Shown here: one piece after another, positions 8,466-36,049 of the stretch
Position numbering within the stretch: position 1 is the first letter of the stretch
Layout of the letters: every line of letters starts with the position of its first letter
Assembly: GCA_001791795.1 (NCBI GenBank)
Contig: MGFH01000061.1
Coordinates: 1 to 36,049 of the forward strand
DNA from: Candidatus Wallbacteria bacterium GWC2_49_35
Lineage (GTDB): Bacteria; Muiribacteriota; UBA9980
Direction of reading: 5' to 3'
Length of the DNA stretch: 36,049 nt
Notes under the pieces: generated by a model
The model's database searches: none
Told to the model about the DNA's origin: nothing
The model's input: the letters and a program-made list of their open reading frames with translations, nothing else
Translations under genes and position numbers: made by a program

Positions 8466-8489
8466 ATGCACTATTCACTGTTCACTTGC
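8463..8489. repeat. Heptanucleotide-periodic tract overlapping the cytochrome 3' end
   Basis: Units read ACTATGC, ACTATTC, ACTGTTC, then a six-base ACTTGC. On the minus strand this encodes the last residues (QVNSE) and the stop codon of the multihaem cytochrome, so the gene now ends inside the repeat. Confidence 0.55.
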
Positions 8490-9637
8490 ACTATAAAAAA
8501 GTGGTCGTGTACCGATTCTGACTTATGGCAGGCGGTGCAGGAGGATTCTGCGCTGTTATCGTCGAGCCTCATTTTTTTATTTATGAATTCGCATTTTGAA
8601 ACCGTTAGTTCGGCCTCTCGCGACCCGGAAACGTATTGCAGGAACGGCGGCAGCGAAGCGTGACAGCTCATGCAGTATTCATTTACGCTGAAAAAGCCCG
8701 GGCCTTCGTCTTTAACGGCCGCGCCGCGAGGGGAGGCGAACTCGCGGGATTTTTCTTCGGCTTTGGGCGCCGCGCCCCTGAAATCGAGGCAGTCTTCGCA
8801 ACTGAAGCCCTCTCTTGCAAGGAACATGAACTTCCAGTATTCGAACTGCCGCTTTCTGTCGTCGAGCGAGCTGTCCGCGGCGTAATCGAAGCGGTTGCCG
8901 CGGTTGTATTTGATCTGACCGGGTTTGGGAACCATGTTGAAGAAATGAGCCTGTATATCTTTTCCGGGTTTATAACCGAGCGCGAATTTGTATTCGCCGC
9001 TTTTGTCGTATCCGTTGGTGTGGCAAGACATGCATATCATGTCGCGTTGATCGGGATCGAGTTTTTTGGGGTTGGTTACGTATCGCGTGTCGCTGTATTC
9101 GATGTGGGCGCTCGCCGGGCCGTGGCACGCCTCGCACGCCACGCCGGCTTCGGCGTAATAAATGCCGCGGTCGTCCTTGCCGTCCGTGGTTTTTTGAGCG
9201 GCGCCTGTGGTATGGCAGCCGATGCATTCTCGTTCGTAATCGGAACGTTTGTAATTTTTGTCGTAATAGTCTGAAAACCCTCCGGAAACGATCGAATAAA
9301 GAAAAGGCGAGACGCGTTTGTTCGATAATAGATACCTTCGCGTCCAGTGGGTTCCTATCGCGAATTCCGCTTCGGCGCTCTCGCCGATCGAAATATGTTT
9401 CGCCGCCATGGCGGCTTTTTCAGGCAGCAGGAAAATTTCGGAGCTCTGTATGAGGGCTTTCGCGTGGAGGGTGTTTTTCCAGCGGGCGTAAATTGATTCG
9501 TGGCAGCGGGCGCATTCTTTCGAACCCGCGTACCTGATTTCGGATACGCCTGTGAAAGTTTTTGAAGCGTAATACAAGGCGGCCGCGGCTATGACCAGCG
9601 CCGCGAAGGCCGTATAAAGGTTACTTCGCGTGTTCAT
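8471..9637 (-). CDS. Multihaem c-type cytochrome
   Basis: This 388-residue protein has an N-terminal membrane anchor or signal segment (residues about 7-24) and six canonical CxxCH haem c motifs: CARCH (from Cys42), CIGCH, CEACH, CMSCH, CMSCH and CTACH. A seventh site reads CEDCL, with Leu where the axial His should be. The spacing and the GVACEACHGPASAH segment resemble cytochrome c554-type and related multihaem families. It would carry electrons across the periplasm; donor and acceptor are unknown. Its start overlaps the end of the upstream HEAT-repeat gene by 17 bases, indicating translational coupling. The extreme C-terminus lies in a heptanucleotide repeat tract. Confidence 0.92.
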   Translation of the reverse strand: MNTRSNLYTAFAALVIAAAALYYASKTFTGVSEIRYAGSKECARCHESIYARWKNTLHAKALIQSSEIFLLPEKAAMAAKHISIGESAEAEFAIGTHWTRRYLLSNKRVSPFLYSIVSGGFSDYYDKNYKRSDYERECIGCHTTGAAQKTTDGKDDRGIYYAEAGVACEACHGPASAHIEYSDTRYVTNPKKLDPDQRDMICMSCHTNGYDKSGEYKFALGYKPGKDIQAHFFNMVPKPGQIKYNRGNRFDYAADSSLDDRKRQFEYWKFMFLAREGFSCEDCLDFRGAAPKAEEKSREFASPRGAAVKDEGPGFFSVNEYCMSCHASLPPFLQYVSGSREAELTVSKCEFINKKMRLDDNSAESSCTACHKSESVHDHFFIVQVNSE

Positions 9638-18648: not shown

Positions 18649-20517
18649 TTAATGGGCGACGATGCCGTCGATCACTTCGAGCACGGTAGCGACCCTGCCG
18701 AACGGCGCGGATATCTGAACGCCCTGCACCATATCCTTGAGCGCGGCGAGCGCCTCGCGGGCGATCTTGATGCCCTCTTCGCGCTGCTTTTCGGCCGAAT
18801 CGCAGGTGCGCATGCGTTTCATCAGGTGTTCCGGTATGGACATGCCGGGCACTTCGTTGTTCATGAATTCTGCGTTTTTAAGCGACGCCAGCGGCCAGAT
18901 TCCGGCGATTATGGGGACCCTGACGTGTTCGATGCGCTTGAGAAAATTCTCGAGAAGCGCTATATCGAAAACCGGCTGGGTGATGGCGAATTCCGCGCCG
19001 GCCTCGACCTTGTATTCGAACCTTTTGATCTCGAGGTTCAAATCGATCGCGCCCGGATTTGCGCCGACGCCGATGAAAAACCCGGTCGGCTTTCCGATGG
19101 GGTTACCGCCCAGGTCGCAGCCGCTGTTGAGGCGGTGGACCATATTGGTAAGTCCGATGGAATCGACGTCGAATACGGCCGTTGCATCGGGGTAGTCGCC
19201 GAGTTTGGGCGGGTCGCCAGTTATCAGCAGAACGTTTTTGAGTCCCGACGCGTAGGCGCCGAGCAGGTCGGACTGCATTCCGAGGAGATTGCGGTCGCGG
19301 CAGCAGTAATGCAGTATGGTTTCGATGCCGGCGCCGCGCTCGAAAATGCCGGCGAGCGCCTGCGGGCTCATGCGCGCTGTGGCGCGCGGGCCGTCAGGGA
19401 TATTTATGGCGTCGATATTATTTTCTTTGGCGAATTTGGCCGATTCGAGAGCGCGCGTGGCGTCGCATCCCTTCGGCGGCGATATCTCGACGGTAACGAC
19501 GAATTTTTTCGCGCAGACGCTCGCGGCGAATTTTGATTTCTTTTCTTTGGCGATGGGTTCAGCCTGCGGCAGAGGTTTTTTAGGAGCGTCCTTAACCATG
19601 ACGCTTATCTTGCGTTCGCCGGTGGTGAACATTCTGGCGGCGGAGGCCATGGCCTTGATGTGAGCGGGCGTAGTTCCGCAGCAGCCGCCGATGATCCTGA
19701 CGCCGTGCTGGATAAAGCGTTTGGTATATTCGGCGAAATATTCGGGCGACGAAAGATACATCGTCCTTCCATCGACCGACGTGGGAAGTCCCGCGGTCGG
19801 GCGCACCATCAGTTTTTTCTTGGTGAATTCCGACATAAGTTCGATCGTGTCGAGCATTATTTTCGGTCCCACGCCGCAGTTAAGTCCTATGACGTCGGCG
19901 CCCCACGAGTCGAGGTTCTGCGTGAAAACTTCGGGCGTGGTTCCGTATGTGGCGTTTCCGTCGTTTCCGATCTTGATCTGGGCGAGAATTGGAAGATTGC
20001 ACAGCGATTTGACCGCCCTTATGGCCTGATGCATTTCATTGATGTCGGAAAAGGTTTCCAGGACGAAAAGATCGACGCCGCCGGCGAGAAGCGCCTCGGC
20101 CTGTTCTCTGAAAAACTCGCATGCCTCGTCGACCGATGTTTTGCCCCACGGTTCGATCTTGATACCGAGCGGCCCGATCGAACCGGCCACGTATACGGTG
20201 TGCTGCGCGGCTTTCGCGACCTGGACGGCGAGTTTGGCGCCCTGGTAGTTGATCGCCTCTAGCTGTTCGGCGAATCCGTGCGGTGCGAGTTTACAGCGGT
20301 TGGCGCCGAAGGTGTTGGTTTCGATCACCTGCGCGCCTGCGCCGACGTATTCGGCGTGTATGTCGCTGATGACGTTCGGCGCGGAAAGGTTCATCTCGTC
20401 GAAGCAGCGGTTGATGTAAATGCCCTTCGAGTAAAGCATCGTGCCCATCGCGCCGTCGAAGATCATGATCCTGTCTTCATTGAGTATATTCATAAAATCT
20501 GGTTTTTCAAAGCTCAT
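18649..20517 (-). CDS. Bifunctional homocysteine S-methyltransferase / 5,10-methylenetetrahydrofolate reductase (YitJ-like)
   Basis: The N-terminal half (about 1-300) is a homocysteine methyltransferase barrel, with DGAMGTMLY at the start and zinc ligands Cys214 (GLNCGVGP) and Cys279/Cys280 (GGCCGTTP). The C-terminal half (about 330-622) is a MetF-type flavoprotein with VTVEISPPKG, the folate-binding LLITGDPPK and ITQPVFD. The same order is found in Bacillus subtilis YitJ. The reductase makes methyl-tetrahydrofolate, and the other domain methylates homocysteine to methionine or handles a related methyl transfer. The start overlaps the end of the upstream MFS gene by four bases (ATGA), so translation is coupled. 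The transcript leader begins at the MFS gene and is too short for an S-box or cobalamin riboswitch. Confidence 0.95.
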   Translation of the reverse strand: MSFEKPDFMNILNEDRIMIFDGAMGTMLYSKGIYINRCFDEMNLSAPNVISDIHAEYVGAGAQVIETNTFGANRCKLAPHGFAEQLEAINYQGAKLAVQVAKAAQHTVYVAGSIGPLGIKIEPWGKTSVDEACEFFREQAEALLAGGVDLFVLETFSDINEMHQAIRAVKSLCNLPILAQIKIGNDGNATYGTTPEVFTQNLDSWGADVIGLNCGVGPKIMLDTIELMSEFTKKKLMVRPTAGLPTSVDGRTMYLSSPEYFAEYTKRFIQHGVRIIGGCCGTTPAHIKAMASAARMFTTGERKISVMVKDAPKKPLPQAEPIAKEKKSKFAASVCAKKFVVTVEISPPKGCDATRALESAKFAKENNIDAINIPDGPRATARMSPQALAGIFERGAGIETILHYCCRDRNLLGMQSDLLGAYASGLKNVLLITGDPPKLGDYPDATAVFDVDSIGLTNMVHRLNSGCDLGGNPIGKPTGFFIGVGANPGAIDLNLEIKRFEYKVEAGAEFAITQPVFDIALLENFLKRIEHVRVPIIAGIWPLASLKNAEFMNNEVPGMSIPEHLMKRMRTCDSAEKQREEGIKIAREALAALKDMVQGVQISAPFGRVATVLEVIDGIVAH

Positions 20518-23168: not shown

Positions 23169-24260
23169 TTAATACTCTACTCCGGCCATGACGTACTGCT
23201 TGACGAATTCGTAGCGGTCCGGATGGGTGCGTTTCATCGAAGCGCCGTTCATATAGTAAGCGCGTACCGATTCAGCGAAATCTTCCATGGAATTACTGTT
23301 GCCGTATGATGAAACCGATGATGAAACCTGATTGCCGCTGCCGGAGTAACCGTTACGGCCGCCCCAGAACTGCGACTGCCATTTCGAGAACACGCCGCTC
23401 TGGGCGAAGTGGAAGCAGTGCGCCATTTCATGGACCAGAACGAATGTCATAGAACTCGTGCCGTGATTGGTCAGATATACGCGCGGCGCGCCGCTTGAAA
23501 CGTAACCGCCGACGTTGGCGCCGAGGCTGGTCGAGGCGATTCTCTGGATCATTTTCGTATTTGCGGTGAACGACGGCGGCAGCTTGGTAAGGAGTTCATA
23601 TGTTTGTTTGAGCTGACTTAAACTCCACTGCGAAGAGCCGTTTTCCACTGTAATATTGAATTTTTCTTTGAGGGCTTTTATGAGCGACTGAGCGTTCGAA
23701 GTGTCGACTCCGGCGGCTTCGCCCGCGGGGCGTTCGGTAGCAGCGCCCTGGTCGTTATTGGCCGGGGGCGTCTGGTTGGATCCGTTAGTGTTTGAATTAT
23801 CGTTCGAATTGGAATTTGAAGTTTCATTATTGGATGAACTATTGGAGGCGCCGTCGTCGGCGTTATTGGAAGTGTTCTGATTGCAGCCGTTATTGTCGGA
23901 AACGCCGGTCGTGTTTCCGGTGCAGCCTTTGAATGCGTCGACGAACTGCTTTATGATCTGTTTGAACATCGAAAAAAGGTCCTGGAAAAAGGATTTTAAT
24001 TTAGAGAAAAAACCGGAGCAGGAACTTTTAATCTGATTGCACGATTGAGAAATACTTTCAGCCGCGCTTTTGATTGAGGAACCGATCTTGCCGGCCGCGT
24101 CGGTGCAGCCTGAAGAGGAAGCCGCGCCTCCGGTCGTTATCTGGTTCGAATTAAGGTCTTTCTGGAGGACGTTTATCGATTCGGAGCGGGCGTCGCCTGC
24201 AAATAAAAATACCACAACGAATAAAAGCGTCAAAATTAAAGGTAAGTGATTTCTCTTCAT
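23169..24260 (-). CDS. Secreted zincin metallopeptidase with Asn/Ser-rich linker
   Basis: A signal peptide (NHLPLILTLLFVVVFLFAGD) is followed by a Cys-containing segment, an amphipathic stretch, and a low-complexity linker of about 50 residues rich in Asn, Ser and Asp. The C-terminal catalytic domain shows VLVHEMAHCFHF (His277, Glu278, His281), the HExxH zinc motif, and a downstream SMEDFAESVRAYY whose Glu is a plausible third ligand (gluzincin pattern). The start at 24260 follows AAAGGGG; the GTG at 24278 overlaps that site. At 363 residues it does not match a named family I can recall. It is transcribed away from a second zincin gene across a shared upstream region, and a TATAAT box lies in its leader region. 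Confidence 0.85.
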   Translation of the reverse strand: MKRNHLPLILTLLFVVVFLFAGDARSESINVLQKDLNSNQITTGGAASSSGCTDAAGKIGSSIKSAAESISQSCNQIKSSCSGFFSKLKSFFQDLFSMFKQIIKQFVDAFKGCTGNTTGVSDNNGCNQNTSNNADDGASNSSSNNETSNSNSNDNSNTNGSNQTPPANNDQGAATERPAGEAAGVDTSNAQSLIKALKEKFNITVENGSSQWSLSQLKQTYELLTKLPPSFTANTKMIQRIASTSLGANVGGYVSSGAPRVYLTNHGTSSMTFVLVHEMAHCFHFAQSGVFSKWQSQFWGGRNGYSGSGNQVSSSVSSYGNSNSMEDFAESVRAYYMNGASMKRTHPDRYEFVKQYVMAGVEY

Positions 24261-24384
24261 AATATGTACCCCTTTCACAATAAATTAAAATTCTTAACCT
24301 ATTATACTACAAAAATTTTAAAAAGTTCATTAAAAATTCGATAATAATAAATTTCATTTTTAAAAACATTTTTGACTTCAAACC

Positions 24385-24413: not shown

Positions 24414-24501
24414 ATATATAATATTTTTTCGTTGATAATTTTCGGCATTTTTTAATACACGATGTTTAGTTAATTTCTTTAAATAAAAGCGAGGTATGAC
24501 T

Positions 24502-25899
24502 ATGAACGCGAATAAAAATCTTATAATGTTTATGGCGTTATTGCTGTTGTGTGCTTTTACCGCGGTTTTTCCAGGCGCGGCGGCCTTTGCCGGCGACTCT
24601 CTTAATGAAAGCGAAATGGTGATATTGAGGCCCCATAAGACCGGGCCGACCGACTCGCTTGTATACATGAAAGATTCTTCAGGTTCCGATATTAATAAAA
24701 TATTGCGTGACAACCCTGAATTTATAAAACAGGTAAGGCTTTATCAATCCATCCAGAAAGAAAAATTCGCTGAAGGTCTGAAAAAGAATTTCAGATTAAG
24801 CGACGCCCAATTGAATAAAATACTTGCCGGTTACAAGCCCGATCCGGTTTACATGGTTTTGAACGAGGGAATGGTAACTAGCGTCAGTTTTGCCAACAGC
24901 AAACCTTTCGGCGTTCTTGAGATCGGCGCGGACGGAAAAACTTCGCTCAGCGTTAAAGCAGCGCCGCTGGTTACCCTTTCGGCCGATACCATAAACGAGT
25001 TAAAAACCGGCGACCGCTGGGGTTACGAAACGGTGTGTCATGAGATCGGCCACGTGATAATGTATCCCACGCACGGAATGCTCGCCTATCCTCACGACCT
25101 CACGGAAAATTTGATCGAGAAGATAAAAAAAGAAGGCCACTGGAAGAATAAGGTCACTACTCCTACTTTCGCCATGCTCGAAGGCTGGGCTGAGTTCAAC
25201 GGCGCTTTTTTTACGGGGCGTCCGATAGGCGATTACACCAGGATCGACGGGCGAGCGAAAACCGAAGACGAAATGATCCGCACCGAGGGCCTCGTGGCTA
25301 AAATAATGCTCGATATCAGCATGAACGCCGAGATCAATGCGGACAAAGACAAAGGCTACGAAAAGATCATGGACACCATGCGCGCCCATAAGTGCAGAAC
25401 TCTTAATTCCTTTCTGGTCGATTATGTCAAAGACTATCCCGCCGACAGGGCGGTCGTTGAAAAAATCGTGAAGAATAATACCGGCGGCACCGTTACTATT
25501 GATTATGACTATGGCTTCAAAGACTGGTGGGCCGATAAATCCCAGGATCTGAAAAAGACCTTCGCCGTCGTTAAAGACTGGTTCACGGGCCTGTTCAAGA
25601 AAAAAGATAAGACCGCCGCCGCCTCGTCCATGGCCGGCGCCGCGACGATAGTTCCCGCGCCGATCAGAAGCCGTACTCTTGTCCGCGATGAAAAAGCTCC
25701 CGCTTTCGGAAACGGCGGCGGCGCGCTCAAACTTTCCGGTGAAACCAGGGAGGGCGAATCGGCTTCGCAAACGTCTGAATTCAATAAAAAATGGAAATCG
25801 CTCTATGAAGAATATAAAAAGGCGCTGGCTGAAAATAACGACTCAAAGGCGTCTGAAATACTCGAAGAAATTAAAGCGCTGAACGGGAAAATAAAATAA
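24502..25899 (+). CDS. Secreted zincin metallopeptidase with C-terminal coiled coil
   Basis: A signal peptide (LIMFMALLLLCAFTAVFPGA, cleavage near AFAG) precedes the catalytic domain with VCHEIGHVIMYPTHG (His180, Glu181, His184) and a later MLEGWAEFNGAFF, where Glu would be the third zinc ligand. The C-terminal part has a basic linker and a helical, coiled-coil-like end. The start at 24502 is better spaced from the GAGG site than the ATG at 24496. The 465-residue protein is not closely similar to the divergent neighbour beyond the HExxH core. Its stop abuts the ATG of the first giant lipoprotein, so they are likely one transcript, and the protease may process or anchor surface lipoproteins; this is inference. 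Confidence 0.86.
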   Translation: MNANKNLIMFMALLLLCAFTAVFPGAAAFAGDSLNESEMVILRPHKTGPTDSLVYMKDSSGSDINKILRDNPEFIKQVRLYQSIQKEKFAEGLKKNFRLSDAQLNKILAGYKPDPVYMVLNEGMVTSVSFANSKPFGVLEIGADGKTSLSVKAAPLVTLSADTINELKTGDRWGYETVCHEIGHVIMYPTHGMLAYPHDLTENLIEKIKKEGHWKNKVTTPTFAMLEGWAEFNGAFFTGRPIGDYTRIDGRAKTEDEMIRTEGLVAKIMLDISMNAEINADKDKGYEKIMDTMRAHKCRTLNSFLVDYVKDYPADRAVVEKIVKNNTGGTVTIDYDYGFKDWWADKSQDLKKTFAVVKDWFTGLFKKKDKTAAASSMAGAATIVPAPIRSRTLVRDEKAPAFGNGGGALKLSGETREGESASQTSEFNKKWKSLYEEYKKALAENNDSKASEILEEIKALNGKIK

Positions 25900-28800
25900 A
25901 TGCTTAAATTCTACAGAATAAATTGTCTGCTGTGCGCGCTCGTAACGGCGGCCCTGCTGACCGCTTTCGCCGCCGGATGCGGCGGCGGAGGAGGGGGCGG
26001 AAGCGTCGCGAGCACGCCCGCGCAGCCCGAACCCCATACAATATCCAAAGCCGTCGAGATCACCGGCAGCGCGGGACCGGCCTCACAATCGCCGCCCGGC
26101 GCGGGCGCGTCATATCAGATAAACTTTTTAAACGACTATACCATAACCGCTTCCGATATTAACGGGACCGCCATCGCCGGCGCCAGCGGATCGTTTACCG
26201 GTGCCACTTCTTTCCGTGTCAGGGTGCCGGTCGACAATGTTTCAAAAATATTGATGCTGACGGTCAAGCACCGCAGCGGAAGCGCCATATATAAAAAGAT
26301 CATCGGTAAAATGCCCGTCGAAGCCGATATTGCGGAAGAAAACGGAATCATCGCGGTCACTAACGCGCAGATAAACGAAGACAGTACCGTAAAAGCTCTG
26401 GTAGCGCTCAGCGACCGTTCCAAACTTCCAGACGCCGTCATCAACGCTGCCGGTGACGGCAAGACCGGCTTCGAAACCGATCTCGACCGCGGGCTCAACG
26501 ACGACGACGGTTCGCAATATATAAACCAGCTGAGGACCGTTTTCAATACGATAGTCAAAGTGATCAATTCCTCCAACGTCAGGATGCACAGCGTCAAAAA
26601 TTATTTTTTAACCGACCTGAACGCGCTTTTAAATTCGTTCGTAGAGGTCGCGCTGATTTATCAGACCGACGATACCGTAAAACAGCTTCTGAGCGCGGCC
26701 CCGTCGGTCAGCATAAAAGGCGTTACGGTTAACTCTGCCTCGCGCCCCGCCGATATCGATACGGTGATATCCGCCATCGTTGAGAGCGTAAGCATGGTCG
26801 CCGCCCCGCCGGTCATATTACCGGCCTCGGGGCTTTTTAAGAGCGCACAGAGCGTCTCGATGACCTGCGCGACCGCGGACGCTTCGATAAGATACACGCT
26901 CGACGGCACCGAACCTTCTCAGGCCGGCGGCGTCTTATACGGCTCGCCCTTCAGCGTTTCAACGCCGCTCACCATTAAGGCGGCAGCTTTCAAAAACGGC
27001 ATGAGAGACTCTAAAACCGCGAGCGTGATCTACACTTTCGATATTCCCGTAAAACCTTCTCCGCCGCTTGTTTTGAACGTTTTCGCCGCGGGCGCATCGG
27101 CTTTCGAACTTAAAAATATTTATGACAACGGCCAGCCTCTCTCACAGACCATTAACGTCCTTAATCCCTATTTCGAAATAGTGTTCAGGCGCTCTGATGC
27201 GCAGCCGTTTTCGCTCGATCAGAATCCGGCATCTCTTAAAATAAGGCTCAGGGCGACCAAGACCGTCAATACCGTTCCGATAGTGAAGACCTTTGTCTAC
27301 GGCTTTGATCGGCTTACCGATGAAACGGCCTGGGATGAGGAATTCGCCCCGCCGGCGATAGGCGCCGACAGGCTCTCGTTCAACGTCAGGGCCGGTCAGG
27401 CGCATTTCACGGAAGACAGCGCCTATAATATCCAGCTGCTGGGTCTGGAAGGCGTTTCATATACCGCTGAGGGCGCGCCGCGGGTACAGTACAATCTGCC
27501 GGCCGGCGTTGCGGGCGTTTTAAATATCAAGTCCGGCTCCGCCACCAAAGTCGCCCCGCCGATAATATCACCTGCGGGCGGTCTGCACATTTCTTCGCGC
27601 GTTGTTTCGATCACCTGTCCCACTTCCGGCGCGCTCGTTTACTATACCGATGACGGCTCGGTCCCTACCGCCAACAGCAAGCCCTATTCGGGCGCGTTCC
27701 TCATCGAGCGCACTCTAACCGTGAACGCCATTGCGGTTAAAACGGGCATGGAGGCGTCTGAAATTTCCACCGCGGTTTTCACCATAAAAACCGCCGCGCC
27801 GGTTTTCTATCCCGCCGGAGGCACTTACGATTCCGCCAGGCAGGTCGTCATCTCATGCGCGACCAGCGGCGCGCGCATTTATTACACCGAAGACGGCAGC
27901 GCGCCGACGGAATCGAGCGCTCAATACGTTTCGCCGTTAAGCGTTACGGCGAGCCGCACCATAAAGGCGATCGCCGTTAAGAACGGCGCCGCTCGGTCCG
28001 ATGCGGCCGTCGCCGAATATAACATATCCGTTACCGCGAAAGTCGCCCAGCCGACGTTTTACCCTGCGCCAGGCTCCTACGCGGGCGTTCAGAACGTCAT
28101 TATTTCATGCGCCACTCCGGGCGCGACTATCAAATATACGACCGATTCATCCGACCCGCTCTTGAGCGCATCCGCTTCCGTTTATTCGGCGCCGGTGCCG
28201 GTCAGCTCGACTACCACAATAAAAGCGGCGGCCGTTAAGACGGAAAACGAAAATTCGAATATAACTACCGGGCTATATATAATTAAAACGGCCGCGCCGG
28301 CGTTCGATCCGCCTGCGGGAAGCTATTCGAGCACCCAGCAGGTGGTAATTTCAACTCTGACTCAGGCGGCTTCTATTTATTATACTACCGACGGCACCGA
28401 GCCGTCCGTGGCGAGCAACCTTTACAACGGGCCGGTCACGGTCTCCGAGTCGCTGACCATCAGGGCCGTAGCGGTAAAAACGGGACTCGCCAATTCGGAC
28501 GTGGCCCCCGCCGCGTATATCATAAGCCAGATCCCCAGGGTCGCTTCGGTCGTTTTCAACCCGACCGACGGCAGTTTTATCGGCGCTGGAAACGTTACGC
28601 TCAGCTGCCCGACGGCGGGCGCCGCCATCCGGTATACTATCGACGGCACCAATCCTTCCGCTTCAGCCGGAACGCTATATTCGACGCCTTTCCAGCTCAG
28701 TTCCTCCGTTACGGTTAAAGCGATGGCGTATAAGGCCGGAATGTCCGACTCTGATATAGTTTCGGCGGCGTACAGATACGTGCCGAAGGTCGTCAACGTC

Positions 28801-29094
28801 CGCTTCGACGTGCCCACAAAAATACTTTCGTGGGACGCGGTTTCGGTTCCGGGCGCCGCGGCCGTCAAATATTACGTCAACGGCACGGCGGGCGCTTTCG
28901 GCCAGACGAAAGACATCACCGATACGGCCGGAACGACCGAAACCAGCCTGAATGCGACTGGACTCATTCCGCCCGAATATGCTGGCATTCCCATCAATGT
29001 GTCCATCGACGTGACCTCCGCGGCCGTAAAACCTGGCGGGGGAGAGGTTCGCGGAGTAAAATCCGACGTTTGCAATTTTACAGTCACAAGATAA
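25900..29094 (+). CDS. Large lipoprotein with chitobiase-C-terminal/Fn3_assoc-like repeats
   Basis: A lipobox ends at Cys27 (TAFAAGC), followed by a Gly run as tether, so the protein is likely surface or outer-membrane anchored. Residues about 45-300 form an N-terminal module shared with the next gene. One 80-residue repeat (303-385), an inserted beta-rich domain (about 386-552), five more repeats (553-962) and a C-terminal Fn3-like domain (963-1064) follow. The repeats carry the pattern IYYTTDGTEPS ... YNGPVTVSESLTIRAVAVK, typical of the CHB_HEX_C_1/Fn3_assoc families, which occur in surface and carbohydrate-active proteins. No enzyme domain is visible. The gene starts on the base after the zincin stop codon. 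Confidence 0.9.
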   Translation: MLKFYRINCLLCALVTAALLTAFAAGCGGGGGGGSVASTPAQPEPHTISKAVEITGSAGPASQSPPGAGASYQINFLNDYTITASDINGTAIAGASGSFTGATSFRVRVPVDNVSKILMLTVKHRSGSAIYKKIIGKMPVEADIAEENGIIAVTNAQINEDSTVKALVALSDRSKLPDAVINAAGDGKTGFETDLDRGLNDDDGSQYINQLRTVFNTIVKVINSSNVRMHSVKNYFLTDLNALLNSFVEVALIYQTDDTVKQLLSAAPSVSIKGVTVNSASRPADIDTVISAIVESVSMVAAPPVILPASGLFKSAQSVSMTCATADASIRYTLDGTEPSQAGGVLYGSPFSVSTPLTIKAAAFKNGMRDSKTASVIYTFDIPVKPSPPLVLNVFAAGASAFELKNIYDNGQPLSQTINVLNPYFEIVFRRSDAQPFSLDQNPASLKIRLRATKTVNTVPIVKTFVYGFDRLTDETAWDEEFAPPAIGADRLSFNVRAGQAHFTEDSAYNIQLLGLEGVSYTAEGAPRVQYNLPAGVAGVLNIKSGSATKVAPPIISPAGGLHISSRVVSITCPTSGALVYYTDDGSVPTANSKPYSGAFLIERTLTVNAIAVKTGMEASEISTAVFTIKTAAPVFYPAGGTYDSARQVVISCATSGARIYYTEDGSAPTESSAQYVSPLSVTASRTIKAIAVKNGAARSDAAVAEYNISVTAKVAQPTFYPAPGSYAGVQNVIISCATPGATIKYTTDSSDPLLSASASVYSAPVPVSSTTTIKAAAVKTENENSNITTGLYIIKTAAPAFDPPAGSYSSTQQVVISTLTQAASIYYTTDGTEPSVASNLYNGPVTVSESLTIRAVAVKTGLANSDVAPAAYIISQIPRVASVVFNPTDGSFIGAGNVTLSCPTAGAAIRYTIDGTNPSASAGTLYSTPFQLSSSVTVKAMAYKAGMSDSDIVSAAYRYVPKVVNVRFDVPTKILSWDAVSVPGAAAVKYYVNGTAGAFGQTKDITDTAGTTETSLNATGLIPPEYAGIPINVSIDVTSAAVKPGGGEVRGVKSDVCNFTVTR
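27556..28785 (+). repeat. Five tandem protein repeats in the first giant lipoprotein
   Basis: Coding repeats of about 80 codons each, recognisable by the IYYTxDGS/PT core and the TIKAIAVK strand. They have diverged at DNA level more than those of the downstream gene. Confidence 0.8.
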
Positions 29095-29190
29095 TTTTTT
29101 GGTAAGATTTCAAAAAAATCAATAATACACCAGTATCCGGCCGGCAAGTCCGGAACAATGAATCGCCTTTGAAACTGCGTGGAGGAAACG

Positions 29191-32100
29191 ATGTTTAAGA
29201 TATTTAAGACGCTTGAATTCTCTTTTAATAAACCCGGCATGAAGATAATCGTAACCTCGGCGGTCCTGTTCGGCGCTGTATACGCCGTCATGATCGCCGG
29301 CTGCGGCGGCGGAGGCGGCGGAACGGTCCCCGCGACCAATTCCTACGTTTCTAAATCCATCGAAATAAGCGGCACTATCGACGGTTCCGCAGTTTCGGTC
29401 CCCGTCTCCGGCGCTAAACTCGCCGCACCGATTAATTTCGCATCCGAATGCGAGCTGAAGGCCTTCGACGTCTCCGGTACGCCGATCTATGGAGCCACAG
29501 GCTATTTCATGGGAAACTCGTTCGAACTTTCGGTCCCGCTGAACGAAGAATACGGCAGATACCTTATGATCGTCGCGCGCCTTAAGACCGGCCATGAAAT
29601 ATACAAGCGCATTTTAGGCAGGATACCGCGCTATGACGACGCGCCGGCTTCGACGATCAGCGTTTCAAGCCTCAGGCTCAATGAGGAAACAACCGCTAAA
29701 ACTCTGGTACTGCTCGAAGACAGAACTAAAATGCCGGCGACCGAAATATACGGCTCGAGCGTCAAAACGCAGTTCGAAATAGATGCCGAGGCCGTAATAA
29801 ACGATCCTGATTCGACGAAGGTTATCGCGCCGCTTAAAACGGCCATAGCGACGATTATCAAGGTCATGAAAGTCGATAATCCGTCCGTGAATGCCGCTAA
29901 AACTACTTACCTGGCGGGGGTTTCCGCCCTGCTGAATTCGTTCGTGACCGTCGCGAAAGCGCGCGAGTCCGATTCAAATATCGCAGGCGCCCTTGCGGAA
30001 ACGCCGCTGATAGTACTCAACGGCCAGAGCATATCGTCTTCGTCTTCGGCGTCCGACATTTCATCCGTCGTCAGCGGCATACAGAATACAGTCAAACCGC
30101 TCGAAGTTGAAAGCCCTGTGTTTACGCCGGCCAGCGGAGTTTTCGAAAGGCCTCAGAGCGTAACCATTTCCTGCGCCACGCCGGGCGCAGTTATAAAATA
30201 CGCGCTGTACGGCAATACTCCCACCGAGGCTTACGGCATGATATACAGCGGACCGATAGAAGTTAAAGAATCCATGTCAATAAAGGCCATAGCGGTTAAA
30301 ATCGGGCTTAAAACCTCCGCCGCGGCGGAAGCCGCCTATACGCTGCTCAACACTTCCATATCGCCCCTCTCCTTAGAATCTATCAGCATCGGAAATCAGA
30401 ACGGGTCCGTCGATTTCATATATAAAAGCGGGCAGACGGCCGTGAAAAGTTTCGAAATAGACCGTCCTTACTTTGAGGTCGGTTTTAAAAGGGCGGATGG
30501 AATTGATTTCACGCTCAACCAGACGCAGTTTTTAAGACTGAAGATCACACTCGTCAGAACCTCGGGCGGATCGTCGAACAGTTACAAGTACGTTTACGGC
30601 ATGGCTCCCGGCTCGGGCGAACTCGATTTCAGCGAGGATTTCAGCGCGCCCGTTATATCCGGACGGCATATCAAATTTAATTACAAGACCAACGCGCAGA
30701 GGCCGGCAGTGGACGCTTCCTATGATTTAAGGCTTGACGAAGTTCAAAACGTTTCATATACCAATTCCGGAGGACTTCTTTATAACTATACCCTGCCGCT
30801 AAGCATTGCCGGCGGCTATAAAATTTATACCGCGGCCCAGACGACCGTCGCGGGGCCTGTATTTTCCCCCGCGGCCGGAAACTACGACGGCGAAATATAT
30901 GTGAGTATGTCCTGCGCGACCGCCGGCGCATCCATACGATACACACTCGATTCAAGCACGCCCACGCCGGCTTCAGGCACGATATTCAACAATATCCCCA
31001 TTCTCGTTTCATCTTCGACCGTCGTGAAAGCCGTGGCTTTTAAAGACGGCATGCAGCCTTCGGCGGTCCTGGAGGCCGCCTATATCATAAATAAAGCCGC
31101 CGCGCCTTTATTCGACCCGCCGCCGGGTGTATACGCTGGGCCCAGGCAGATCACGCTTACCACTAAAACTCCCGGCGCTTCGATCTATTTCACCGACGAC
31201 GCGAGCGCGAATCCGTCGCGGTCAAGCGCTCTTTATTCAGGGCCTTTCACCATTTATTCATCGAAGGTGATTAAAGCCGTGGCCGTTAAAGACGGCATGC
31301 AGGACTCGAATATCGTTTCAGCCGAATATATCATCAACAGAGCGGAGCCCCCTCAGTTCAATCCGCCCGCCGGAACATACGCCGGCGCGCAGAATATTGT
31401 CTTATTTTCCGGGACGCCGGGCGCGCTCATACGCTACACGCTTGACGGAAGCGTTCCGAACCAGTCCAGCGCGCTCTACGGCGGCCCCATTTCGCTCGCG
31501 AATTATGGCACCGCCGAGATAAAGGCCGCGGCTTCAAAAACCGACATGGCCGATTCCGCAGTGGTAAGCGCCGTATACGTGATACTCGAAAAGGCCGCCC
31601 GGCCGCAATTCAGTCCAGCCGCGGGAGTTTATGACGCGGCCCGCGACGTGGCCATTACCTCGGCCACTCCCGCCGCCGTGATTTATTATACTCTGGACGG
31701 ATCAGCGCCGAACCGCTCCAGCGCGATATATTCCGCGCCCGTCAGGATAGCGGCGAGCCTGAAACTTAGCGCCATAGCCGTTAAAAGCGGCATGGCCGAT
31801 TCGGATGCCGAAAGCGGCGCCTATACGATAAATATTCCGGCGGTCGCTAAACCAATAATTTATCCGTCGTCCGGCACGTACGGCTCCGTCCAGAGCGCCG
31901 TCATTTCATGCGCCACTTCCGGCGCATCTATACGTTACACCCTCGACGAGACCGTGCCGACCTCTTCTTCCACCCTGTATTCCGGCACTATCGAGGTAAG
32001 CCAGACGACTTATATCAAGGCGATAGCGTTTAAGGCCGGAATGCTCGATTCTCAGCCTGCCGAGTCCTACATAGTTCTTGATATGCCCAGACCTAAAGTC

Positions 32101-35100
32101 GCCAATCCGCAGTTCAACCCGGCCGGCGGCATATATGTCGGAGCGCAGCCGGTTTCGATTACTTCGGCTACCGCCGGCTCCGAAATTTATTACACGCTCG
32201 ACGGATCTCGCCCGACTTCTTCCAAAACGCGTTACACCGCGCCGTTTACCGTCGGCGCTAACTCCACCGTTAAAGCCATAGCCATAAAACAGCCCGACTT
32301 GAGCGATTCCGACGTGATCACCGCCGAATATTTCATACGCATTCCCAAGCCTTCGTTCAGCGTCGCCGGCGGAACCTATAATGAAGAAAAGTCAGTCAGC
32401 ATAACCTCCGGCGTCACCGGCGCCGTAATATACTACACCACCGACGGTTCCGAACCGCGGGCCGAATATCAATATCTGTACGGCGGCCCTATCAACGTTT
32501 TGCGCTCTATGACAATCAAGGCCATGGCGGTTAAAGCCGGCATGCTTTATTCCGAGGCGGCAATCGCCCAGTACGTCATCAAAGTGAAAACTCCTGAATT
32601 CAATCCGCCGCCGGGAAATTACACGGATACCCAATCGGTTGCGATCACATGCCAGACGCCTAATTCCGCTATATACTACACGCTCAACGGAACGGCCCCC
32701 ACTCCGTCTTCGACTTTATACACTAATCCATTGACGGTTTCAGTCAATACGACCATCAAGGCCGTCGCCGTAAAAAGCGGTCTTGTCAATTCCGATATCG
32801 CCGCCGCCGTTTATGTGGTTCAGCCCAGGGCGGCGAAGCCGCAGATGACGCCTCCGGGCGGAGTCTATAATTCCGCGCGCAGCGTCACTATTAACTCCGC
32901 TACGGCCGGCGCGGTTATTAAATATACCACCGACGGCTCCACGCCGTCCGCCTCGAGCGCTACTTATTCCGGCGCGATTACGGTTTCGGCGACCTCGGTC
33001 GTTAAAGCCATAGCTATCAAATCGGGCATGCTCGATTCCCTTGTCGCCAGCGAATCCTATACGATCGACGCCGCGCTTCAGATGGCCGAAACTCCCGCGT
33101 TCAATCCTCCGGGCGGCGCTTATAACGCGTCGCAAAACGTTACGATAACTTCCGCCACTGCCGGCGCCGCCATTCATTATACGCTCGACGGCAGTTATCC
33201 TACGACATCTAGTCCCGCCTATATAACGCCTGTGACCATCGACGCTTCGAAAACGATTAAAGCCATAGCCGTTAAGAGCGGTATGGCTCATTCGGCGGTA
33301 GCGTCCGCGACTTACGTCATTAAAGCCGCGGCGCCCGTGTTCAGTCCCGCTGCCGGCACATATACCGCAACGCAAAATATTACGATAACTTCCGCCACTG
33401 CCGGCGCCGTTATAAAGTACACTTCAGACGGCAGCGCGCCGTCGCAGTCTGCAGGCACGGTTTACTCCGCGCCCGTGGTTGTCGTTCAAAATACCATTCT
33501 GCGCGCGATTGCGCTTAAAACGGGCATGGCCGATTCCGATATTTCACAGGCCGCCTACGGCATCCGCGTGGCCGCGCCCGTTATGAGCCTTGATTCCGGC
33601 ACTTACGAAGGCGATAAACTCGTTACAATTACTTGCGCCACTGCCGGCGCGGCGATACGCTACACCACCGACGGCAGCGCGCCCTCGACGACCGAGGGAA
33701 CGCTGTACAGCGGGGCAGTCGCGGTTTCGACGAGTATGACGCTTAAAGCCATAGCCTATAAGAGCAATATGCTCGACTCTGAAATTACCGCGAAAACCTA
33801 TACCATAAAGACCGCGGCGCCCGTGTTCAGCCCGGCGCCGGGCGCTTACGCCGGGTCTGTAACTATCTCGATAGCCTGCGCCACCGGGGGCGCCGTCATC
33901 TATTACACTACTGACGGCTCCACGCCGACTACCGCGAGCGCGCAGTACGGCGCTCCGTTCGCGATAGAAACGTCACAGACCATTAAAGCGTTCGCGCAAA
34001 AGGCCGGTCTCGGCGAATCGACCGTCGTTTCGGCGGCTTACGTTATATCCGTTCCCGCGCCGACATTCAGCCCGGCGCCGGGCACTTATCAGACCGCCCA
34101 GAACGTCACGATTTCGTGCGCCATGAGCGGCGCCGTTATCCGCTACACTACCGACGGTTCCACGCCGACGGCCGCGAGCACCCAATACAGCTCGCCGATC
34201 TCCGTTACGGCGACCACTACCGTCAAAGCCATAGGCATCAAGGCCGGCGCCCAGAACTCGAACGTAGCTACCGCGGTCTATACCATCGGCGTTCCCGTCG
34301 CGCCGCCTTCGTTCAATCCGCCTGCCGGCGCCTATACCGGCGTGCAGTCGGTCGCGATCACCTGCGCTACGGCCGGCGCTACCATATACTATACCACCAA
34401 CGGGACCGAACCGACCACGGCGGGCATGCAGTATTCCGCGCCGATAACGGTTTCAGCGAATATGACGATCAAGACCATGGCTGCTAAGGCCGGCATGATC
34501 GACTCCCCCGTCGCCAGCGCAGCTTACACCATAACCATACCGCCGGTGGCGACCCCGACGTTCAATCCCGCCGCCGGAACATATTCGAGCGCGCAGTCGG
34601 TCACGATTTCCTGCGCTACGGCCGGCGCGTCGATATATTACACGATGGACGGATCCGTTCCAACAACCGCGAGTACGCTGTACGCTTCGCCCGTCAACGT
34701 TTCGGCGAGCGTTACAATAAAAGCTATCGCCGCTAAATCGGGTATGACCGATTCCGCCGTCGCTACCGCCGCGTATATTATCAACGCAGCGCCAGTCGAG
34801 GCGCCTGTTTTCAATCCGCCCGGCGGCAATTACTCCACTATCCAGAACGTCACTATCACAAGCGCCACGAGCGGGGCGGTTATCCACTATACCGTCGATA
34901 ACTTCACTCCGACCGCGGCCAGCCCGACTTATTCATCGCCGATCCCGGTTGCGGCGACGCTCACATTGAAAGCGATAGCCAGCAAGGGCGGCGTGGATTC
35001 GCCCGTTATGACCGCCGAGTACGTTATTTCAGGCAACACATTTACTCTTACGACAACTGCTTTTGCGAACGGCGGCGTGATACCGGTCAAATATACGGGC

Positions 35101-35532
35101 AATGGAAGCAATGTATCGCCGGCGTTCAGCTGGACAGGCGTTCCGGCGGGCACTAAGAGCCTTGCGCTCGTCTGCTCCGACGACGTCAACGGGACGCCGG
35201 AAAACCCTCAGGACGATTACATTCACTGGGTAATTTACAATATCTCTCCCACGGCGACCGGGCTTTCTGAAAATATCGCTAAAACAGCCAGCGTAAGCGC
35301 CGGCATATTGCCTTCCGGCACGGCCGCGCAGGGCAAAAATAGCGCGGCCACCATCGGCTATATCGGTCCGAATCCGCCGGCCGGACCCGCGCATACCTAT
35401 AATTTCGGTGTCCTCGCTCTCGATCTGGACCCGACGCTCACGCCCGGCATGGAGCTGATGATGTTCGTAATGTCCATTAACGGCAAGATGATATCACAGA
35501 CGATTTACAGCGGCACTTATCAGGCGCCTTAA
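29191..35532 (+). CDS. Giant lipoprotein: 18 chitobiase-C-terminal/Fn3_assoc-like repeats and a C-terminal PEBP domain
   Basis: The start at 29191 follows a GGAGG site; the GTG at 29179 overlaps it. A lipobox ends at Cys38 (VMIAGC), then Gly-rich. The N-terminal module (about 45-300) and the inserted beta domain (about 389-555) match the paralogue just upstream. I count one repeat before the insertion (309-388) and 17 after it (556-1947), each 78-86 residues, with the core IYYTTDGSTPTTAS ... TIKAIAVKSGMxDS. Residues 1951-2113 are a YbhB/YbcL-type phosphatidylethanolamine-binding-protein domain: NVSPAFSWTGVPAGTKSLAL, DDYIHWVIYNI and GPNPPAGPAHTYNFGVLALD with the expected His residues. The 2113-residue protein would extend far from the membrane and display the PEBP domain at its tip. 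Ligand unknown. Confidence 0.92.
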   Translation: MFKIFKTLEFSFNKPGMKIIVTSAVLFGAVYAVMIAGCGGGGGGTVPATNSYVSKSIEISGTIDGSAVSVPVSGAKLAAPINFASECELKAFDVSGTPIYGATGYFMGNSFELSVPLNEEYGRYLMIVARLKTGHEIYKRILGRIPRYDDAPASTISVSSLRLNEETTAKTLVLLEDRTKMPATEIYGSSVKTQFEIDAEAVINDPDSTKVIAPLKTAIATIIKVMKVDNPSVNAAKTTYLAGVSALLNSFVTVAKARESDSNIAGALAETPLIVLNGQSISSSSSASDISSVVSGIQNTVKPLEVESPVFTPASGVFERPQSVTISCATPGAVIKYALYGNTPTEAYGMIYSGPIEVKESMSIKAIAVKIGLKTSAAAEAAYTLLNTSISPLSLESISIGNQNGSVDFIYKSGQTAVKSFEIDRPYFEVGFKRADGIDFTLNQTQFLRLKITLVRTSGGSSNSYKYVYGMAPGSGELDFSEDFSAPVISGRHIKFNYKTNAQRPAVDASYDLRLDEVQNVSYTNSGGLLYNYTLPLSIAGGYKIYTAAQTTVAGPVFSPAAGNYDGEIYVSMSCATAGASIRYTLDSSTPTPASGTIFNNIPILVSSSTVVKAVAFKDGMQPSAVLEAAYIINKAAAPLFDPPPGVYAGPRQITLTTKTPGASIYFTDDASANPSRSSALYSGPFTIYSSKVIKAVAVKDGMQDSNIVSAEYIINRAEPPQFNPPAGTYAGAQNIVLFSGTPGALIRYTLDGSVPNQSSALYGGPISLANYGTAEIKAAASKTDMADSAVVSAVYVILEKAARPQFSPAAGVYDAARDVAITSATPAAVIYYTLDGSAPNRSSAIYSAPVRIAASLKLSAIAVKSGMADSDAESGAYTINIPAVAKPIIYPSSGTYGSVQSAVISCATSGASIRYTLDETVPTSSSTLYSGTIEVSQTTYIKAIAFKAGMLDSQPAESYIVLDMPRPKVANPQFNPAGGIYVGAQPVSITSATAGSEIYYTLDGSRPTSSKTRYTAPFTVGANSTVKAIAIKQPDLSDSDVITAEYFIRIPKPSFSVAGGTYNEEKSVSITSGVTGAVIYYTTDGSEPRAEYQYLYGGPINVLRSMTIKAMAVKAGMLYSEAAIAQYVIKVKTPEFNPPPGNYTDTQSVAITCQTPNSAIYYTLNGTAPTPSSTLYTNPLTVSVNTTIKAVAVKSGLVNSDIAAAVYVVQPRAAKPQMTPPGGVYNSARSVTINSATAGAVIKYTTDGSTPSASSATYSGAITVSATSVVKAIAIKSGMLDSLVASESYTIDAALQMAETPAFNPPGGAYNASQNVTITSATAGAAIHYTLDGSYPTTSSPAYITPVTIDASKTIKAIAVKSGMAHSAVASATYVIKAAAPVFSPAAGTYTATQNITITSATAGAVIKYTSDGSAPSQSAGTVYSAPVVVVQNTILRAIALKTGMADSDISQAAYGIRVAAPVMSLDSGTYEGDKLVTITCATAGAAIRYTTDGSAPSTTEGTLYSGAVAVSTSMTLKAIAYKSNMLDSEITAKTYTIKTAAPVFSPAPGAYAGSVTISIACATGGAVIYYTTDGSTPTTASAQYGAPFAIETSQTIKAFAQKAGLGESTVVSAAYVISVPAPTFSPAPGTYQTAQNVTISCAMSGAVIRYTTDGSTPTAASTQYSSPISVTATTTVKAIGIKAGAQNSNVATAVYTIGVPVAPPSFNPPAGAYTGVQSVAITCATAGATIYYTTNGTEPTTAGMQYSAPITVSANMTIKTMAAKAGMIDSPVASAAYTITIPPVATPTFNPAAGTYSSAQSVTISCATAGASIYYTMDGSVPTTASTLYASPVNVSASVTIKAIAAKSGMTDSAVATAAYIINAAPVEAPVFNPPGGNYSTIQNVTITSATSGAVIHYTVDNFTPTAASPTYSSPIPVAATLTLKAIASKGGVDSPVMTAEYVISGNTFTLTTTAFANGGVIPVKYTGNGSNVSPAFSWTGVPAGTKSLALVCSDDVNGTPENPQDDYIHWVIYNISPTATGLSENIAKTASVSAGILPSGTAAQGKNSAATIGYIGPNPPAGPAHTYNFGVLALDLDPTLTPGMELMMFVMSINGKMISQTIYSGTYQAP
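30856..35031 (+). repeat. Seventeen tandem protein repeats in the second giant lipoprotein
   Basis: Repeats of about 234-258 bp. Units near the 3' half are more alike. For example 33131-33169 and 33371-33409 agree at 37 of 39 bases, 240 bp apart, suggesting recent intragenic duplication. Confidence 0.85.
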
Positions 35533-35550: not shown

Positions 35551-35593
35551 TTTATTTAAGCGCCTGATTTTTTAGGTCAGGCGCTTAAATAAA
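35551..35593. terminator. 17-bp perfect hairpin after the giant lipoprotein gene
   Basis: The arm TTTATTTAAGCGCCTGA pairs perfectly with TCAGGCGCTTAAATAAA around a nine-base loop. It lies 18 bases after the stop. The AT-rich outer stem gives T-rich ends in both directions. Confidence 0.6.
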
Positions 35594-35630
35594 AAATTTA
35601 TATTTTAATTATTTTTCCGATAATAACTTC

Positions 35631-36049
35631 ATGTCATATTCTTATTACTACCGGAAAAATAATGCACCGGGCGCGCGCAATTTAATATTGATATTATGGC
35701 TTTTCGCGGCTTTTATTACCATTAACGCCGGCTGCCCCGAAAAACATGTCAATAGATATTCCCCGATAATTCCCGGCTCGATATCCGGCACCGTCAGGAC
35801 ATTCGACGGGCAGTCCGTCGCCGGCGCCGTCGTTTTCGTCACTACCGACGATCTGCTCAAAAATGGCGTCACACTCAAAAAACTCGACTCGGCCGGCGGA
35901 TTTTCATTCGCCGGAATTGACCCCGGCTGGTACTATATTTCAGCTTATAAAGACATGAGATCCGACGGTACCTACACCATCGGCGAAGACTACCTCGGCG
36001 GTAAACTCGTCGACCAGTGGGACCTGGACAACAGTTACCACATCGAGGT
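35631..36049 (+). CDS. Lipoprotein with carboxypeptidase-regulatory-like domain, runs off the window
   Basis: The frame from the ATG at 35631 is open to the end of the window (139 codons seen). A basic start is followed by a hydrophobic segment (LILILWLFAAFITIN) and a lipobox-like NAGC, so this is probably another lipoprotein. The mature part begins with GSISGTVRTFDGQSVAGAVV ... SAGGFSFAGIDPGWYYISAY, the pattern of carboxypeptidase-regulatory-like/Cna-B-like beta sandwich domains that often extend surface proteins. The ribosome-binding site is weak. It lies 98 bases beyond the giant lipoprotein gene and past a hairpin, so it may be a separate transcript. The C-terminal domains are not visible. 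Confidence 0.82.
   Translation, partial: MSYSYYYRKNNAPGARNLILILWLFAAFITINAGCPEKHVNRYSPIIPGSISGTVRTFDGQSVAGAVVFVTTDDLLKNGVTLKKLDSAGGFSFAGIDPGWYYISAYKDMRSDGTYTIGEDYLGGKLVDQWDLDNSYHIE

Follow-up and report, generated by a model that had tools for sequence, protein, structure and literature searches.

In polymorphic toxins, a conserved N-terminal part is followed by a variable C-terminal domain, and the 3′ end of the gene is replaced. Fibrillar adhesins are long, secreted proteins that combine an anchor, a repeated stalk, and a distal domain, and their repeat number varies (Monzon et al., PMC8286594, PMC9210967); as far as searched, the main texts of these two surveys mention neither CHB_HEX nor PEBP. 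In CshA/B, the NR2 tip domain has been shuffled onto many different stalks across bacteria (PMC10952558). PEBPs of the YbhB/YbcL family (PF01161, TIGR00481) are normally short stand-alone proteins with five conserved residues, namely D71, D73, H87, H118, and R119 in FT numbering (Tsoy and Mushegian, PMC8793217), and the natural function of the bacterial members is unsettled. Fusions have been called infrequent; those described include C-terminal PEBPs joined to FN3 regions in carbohydrate-related actinobacterial proteins such as WP_014179790.1 (PMC8793217), so that there is precedent for the fusion of a PEBP in itself. This article concerns a gene for a repeat-rich lipoprotein ending in a PEBP domain, encoded in a 36,049-nucleotide stretch of DNA from Candidatus Wallbacteria bacterium GWC2_49_35 (assembly GCA_001791795.1, contig MGFH01000061.1), hereafter referred to as the window, and its counterparts in the sampled draft assemblies, which comprise four genomes of the genus.

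Like a fibrillar adhesin, the encoded protein is long, probably secreted, and equipped with a distal domain and, in its 18 CHB_HEX repeats, a long repeated stalk; its putative anchor is an N-terminal lipid, which would place the tip at the C-terminus, and binding by that tip is putative. As read from orthologous loci, a ~105-residue C-terminal cap is replaced in place on this stalk by the PEBP domain and a terminator, and the original prediction, which drew attention to the domain and its unusual setting, did not recognize that it has probably taken the place of an earlier, different tip. The NR2 case follows one tip fold from stalk to stalk, whereas the present case concerns a single orthologous stalk locus that bears two different tips in species of the same genus, and one of its two joints is placed at the DNA level. 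A conserved N-terminal part, a variable C-terminal domain, and a replaced 3′ end are features shared with polymorphic toxins; however, neither a toxin domain nor an immunity gene nor an orphan tip left by displacement was seen in the sequence that follows the window gene. The actinobacterial PEBP fusions likewise differ, in that they contain a glucose/sorbosone dehydrogenase domain and a pectate-lyase-like module, while the window protein has a lipid anchor and its repeat array.

The Stalk Lipoprotein and Its PEBP Tip

The open reading frame of the stalk lipoprotein occupies positions 29179-35532 on the forward strand (2117 codons) and opens at GTG 29179, although the likely true start is ATG 29191, which has a GGAGG Shine-Dalgarno sequence, read directly, shortly upstream (gene 29191..35532). 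A lipobox, MIAGC (MIAG-C), can likewise be read directly, and is kept in the stalk orthologs as VISGC (L118) and LIIAGC (L119); the protein is probably lipid-anchored, as far as its sequence indicates. The N-terminal domain (29326..30081, +) belongs to no Pfam family and is common to many stalk proteins of the genus, its matches being confined to the four genomes, with several in each. A first CHB_HEX_C_1/Fn3_assoc repeat stands apart at 30115..30363 (+; residues 313-395), and is followed by an array of 17 tandem repeats of 80-85 aa each at 30856..35037 (+; residues 560-1953), as delimited by Pfam and repeat analysis. These features agree with the original description of a lipid-anchored repeat stalk that terminates in a PEBP domain. 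An NCBIfam match of the stalk protein to DUF499_antiphage was discarded, as it covers an Fn3_assoc-like stretch alone and falls far below the cutoff.

The tip itself (35038..35529, +) is assigned by PF01161, TIGR00481, phmmer, and Foldseek. Its ~165 residues match the Pfam family PF01161 (PBP/PEBP) at 107 bits against a cutoff of 24, at residues 1968-2114 (nt 35080-35520) and over positions 2-135 of the 135 in the model (E 7.6e-29 in the full protein, 1.2e-30 for the tip alone). The NCBIfam model TIGR00481 also scores above its cutoff (86.5 versus 57.75), and phmmer retrieves the solved PEBPs 3n08, 1fjj, 1fux, and 4beg. The AlphaFold model of the tip is of low confidence (pLDDT 59, pTM 0.64), and its top Foldseek matches are PEBPs exclusively (3n08, E 1e-10). 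In a protein search of plasmid records, none of the 332 matching records covered 80% of the query at one place, which is in line with ordinary PEBPs.

In alignment, the domain retains D71, H87, H118, and the Tyr that follows position 119, all of which are shared with the YbhB/YbcL family; thus both the profile match and the pocket residues on which the original prediction had been staked are present. It departs from the family in two respects: the DPDxP motif is split by a five-residue insertion (D-DVNGT-PENP, with the Glu aligned to D73), and R119 is replaced by Thr. The D73-R119 salt-bridge shoulder, kept in most members, is consequently absent. The profile does not demand this shoulder, and other divergent PF01161 members are likewise without it, so that membership as judged by profile stands, while a canonical PEBP function appears less sure. 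Among the large fused PEBPs of the phylum, R119 occurs in none of eight, compared with R or H at this position in 44 of 47 shorter PEBPs, a contrast that is descriptive and for which a Fisher p-value is not meaningful, since the eight represent about three independent lineages and the comparison set consists mostly of best-scoring matches. The D/H/H set is retained in five of the eight, and D/H/H/Y is intact in the window protein and in all four copies of a ~2580-aa family.

In-Place Replacement of the Tip

Zincin-like genes on both strands, a 1064-1066-aa lipoprotein, and the long lipoprotein form a cluster that the window has in common with the genomes G002 and G003 of the genus; in G001 the stalk gene pair is found on a short contig, and the stalk ortholog of G002 is interrupted by a contig end. 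The two complete orthologs, from G003 (2068 aa) and G001 (1974 aa), match the window protein at 67% over 1961 columns and 70% over 1867 columns, respectively, and are colinear with it repeat by repeat, at 58-82% identity per 80-residue block until the last repeats, the final stalk block being at 47% identity to G003. Beyond this point nothing in the window protein matches the C-terminal ~105 residues of either ortholog, and the PF01161 profile in turn finds no match at the orthologous stalk loci. This cap shares homology with the terminal part of the 1064-aa paralog that precedes the stalk gene, including the copy in the window (25900..29094, +), which has six repeats. As the cap is carried by two orthologs and by the neighboring paralog, it would represent the ancestral state. 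A model of the cap made without an alignment reached a pLDDT of 38, and its profile gave weak Ig/Fn3 matches alone among PDB sequences (best E 0.009).

Both limits of the exchanged segment can be approached. The last repeat of the window stalk is 55% identical to the last repeat of G003 and 42% identical to that of a 714-aa PEBP protein of G002 (G002_714), so it was rejected as part of the incoming segment, and the left joint was set at its end, at approximately nt 35037. On the right, DNA homology with the G001 locus resumes at 35588..36038 (+; 70% over 455 alignment columns, E 3e-57), 56 bp past the PEBP stop and just after an intrinsic-terminator-like hairpin (35551..35593, +; −26.3 kcal/mol, z −6.9). 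The core of this hairpin (35558-35586) occurs once in the genome, and no comparable hairpin is seen by eye in the 49-bp spacer at the G001 locus. The gene that follows (35631..36047, +), cut by the contig end, encodes a lipoprotein with a CarboxypepD_reg-like domain that scores below the Pfam cutoff, and its ortholog, at 68% identity, sits after the cap-ended stalk gene in G001. Since orthologous sequence flanks the PEBP and hairpin on both sides, these took the place of the cap.

Repeat genes are easily misassembled, the genome is a draft of 253 contigs, and the PEBP lies near a contig end, all of which might suggest an assembly chimera. This is barely credible, as it would require two seamless joints within 550 bp, one at an in-frame repeat/tip boundary and the other just past a terminator, with orthologous sequence on either side; moreover, an independent CHB_HEX and PEBP lipoprotein exists in G002.

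Origin and Distribution of the PEBP Domain

PEBP matches were obtained in 111 of 382 bacterial genomes surveyed and, among the matches listed, those in frames of more than 641 aa came exclusively from this phylum, in keeping with the earlier view that the arrangement is uncommon. Outside the phylum, frames of 589-641 aa (L077:953-2875, L078:936-2702) terminate in PEBPs whose pocket is replaced (HAYKTY at the key columns), with no further Pfam domain. The large proteins of the phylum are the window protein, G002_714, the 2580-aa family (G000, G001, G002, and G003), and 4150-aa proteins of G012 and G022. No free-standing PEBP was found in the four genomes of the genus, three of which are 93-96% complete and the window's own ~77%; within the genus the domain was found solely in large proteins. 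The original prediction had proposed a search for other proteins combining CHB_HEX repeats with PEBP; G002_714 is a second and independent lipoprotein of this kind. It is the nearest relative of the window PEBP, although both of its pocket histidines are gone (H87 to Q, H118 to R).

In a phylogenetic tree the PEBP copies from the genus group into a single, genus-specific clade (support 97/92), and the large proteins that carry them are unrelated; the window PEBP pairs with G002_714 (96/68), and the 2580-aa family stands next to this pair. Third-position GC content is 0.65 in the PEBP part and 0.66 in the stalk. This equality, together with the genus clade, makes a source within the genus likely for the tip. 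In G002, the 714-aa gene adjoins a gene with a 2615-codon frame, and the corresponding genes were not seen at that place in G000.

The secreted-looking proteins of the ~2580-aa family (L023:3709-11448, L024:7611-15410, L026:2594-10348, L025:1074-3680) carry an internal PEBP ~350-380 residues before the C-terminus, the remainder being almost unannotated, with weak TPR matches alone. The 4150-aa proteins, a different family of Big_5/TIG/fn3 lipoproteins (L027:3340-15786, L028:7038-19475), have a terminal PEBP in which none of the five conserved charged residues is left. A 149-aa gene of G003 (L026:1669-2118), at the place of the 714-aa gene of G002, is a remnant comprising an N-terminal stretch and the second half of a PEBP. 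As the PEBPs of the genus were found only as modules of large, mostly exported-looking proteins, with pockets either intact or ruined, they provide a natural series for studying the role of the pocket.

Tip Exchange at a Second Locus and Tip Diversity

At a second stalk locus, proteins of G003 (L121:2064-8369) and G001 (L122:4366-10008) are 82% identical across their first 1021 residues and diverge thereafter, the former continuing into PD40 propellers and the latter into FGE-sulfatase and LRR_5 domains; the 283-aa genes upstream look orthologous by eye. The domains found after CHB_HEX repeats in the genus include FGE-sulfatase, PD40, Kelch, LRR_5, PT-HINT, and an L-type lectin-like domain, for which two of three lectin models reach their cutoffs and one falls narrowly short. 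Stalk proteins with the terminal PT-HINT/Hint domain are encoded at L163:7398-14372 and L123:3-6826, and the G002 copy is apparently split into two open reading frames. A further pair with shared N-termini (L129/L150) was not counted as tip exchange, the proteins being non-orthologous. Since most other orthologous stalk groups retain their tails, exchange is occasional. These comparisons suggest that stalk proteins of the genus are able to change the part they display, and the in-place exchange between orthologous stalks, one of whose joints is placed to the base and which has a parallel at a second locus, opens modular retargeting of surface stalks to direct tests between sister species.

Proposed Role of the Tip and Alternative Explanations

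From the 17 tandem Ig-size repeats, the rod would be several tens of nanometers long, exceeding a typical periplasm, and the genome encodes an Omp85/BamA homolog, which makes an outer membrane likely; the likeliest reading of both is that the protein is anchored in the outer membrane with its tip pointing outward. The explanation we favor, and regard as reasonably probable, is of a fibrillar-adhesin-like lipoprotein in which an outer-membrane-anchored CHB_HEX/Fn3_assoc rod presents one exchangeable distal domain, the ancestral cap having been exchanged, directly after the final repeat, for a PEBP with its own terminator. The likely route would be recombination among the numerous genes with CHB_HEX repeats that the genome contains. 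The exchange of tips points to a role in recognition, and the retained D/H/H/Y residues favor the binding of a small ligand, so the PEBP would act as a binding module whose pocket, or the surface around it, takes a small anionic or sugar-like extracellular ligand. A broader proposal, more tentative though quite possible, is that across the surface stalk lipoproteins of the genus the CHB_HEX repeats serve as a shared recombination track along which distal domains are swapped as modules with their own terminators, allowing species to alter what they display, and that the PEBP was turned into one such displayed binding tip. Several points weigh against these proposals: no donor gene for the tip and no LolA match were found in the window's genome (~77% complete), a single genome shows this stalk with a PEBP tip, 0.5 kb from a contig end, and the loss of both histidines in G002_714 means that binding through the pocket is not conserved among these tips.

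That same loss, with the complete loss of the pocket in the proteins of G012 and G022 and of R119 in all eight fusions, would be expected if the PEBP fold were an inert structural end-piece, in which case any compact beta domain might end the stalk and the pocket would drift without function; that the PEBP took the place of another small, probably beta-rich cap also fits. Drift is disfavored by the pocket shared by the window protein and the four 2580-aa copies, and several other tips of the genus come from families with binding or catalytic members, so this explanation, the most serious of the alternatives, is considered unlikely. Less probable again is an enzymatic role at the cell surface, in which the tip would turn over small sugar-like metabolites, an activity that Tsoy and Mushegian (PMC8793217) proposed for PEBPs in general. 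The intact D71/H87/H118, the carbohydrate-related FN3 proteins of actinobacteria that end in a PEBP, and the derivation of the CHB_HEX domain name from carbohydrate-active enzymes are compatible with such an activity; on the other hand, catalysis is itself a proposal in that work, the salt-bridge shoulder is altered, and the nearest homolog has neither histidine.

The original prediction pointed to two zincin proteases nearby and suggested an extracellular role in ligand binding or protease inhibition. Upstream there are indeed genes for two HExxH proteins that belong to no Pfam family, one at 23169..24278 on the reverse strand (HEMAH...SMEDFAES) and one at 24496..25899 on the forward strand (HEIGH...EGWAE), the latter adjoining the stalk genes, and in G002 and G003 both keep this position next to the stalk pair. 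Known PEBP inhibitors act on serine proteases. The zincin/stalk cluster persists in G003, where the stalk has no PEBP, and the stretches read around the remaining PEBP genes of the genus contain no in-frame HExxH protein; there is thus no conserved genetic link between inhibitor and protease, and control of the zincins by the tip is very improbable. Ligand binding, the other part of the suggested role, is possible given the retained D/H/H/Y pocket.

Neighboring Genes

Relatives of the zincin-like protein at 24496-25899 occur across most of the phylum. Elsewhere in the window, positions 18649-20517 encode a homocysteine S-methyltransferase fused with a methylenetetrahydrofolate reductase, and positions 8471-9637 encode a cytochrome c554/MtrC-like protein that adjoins HEAT-repeat and TPR proteins.

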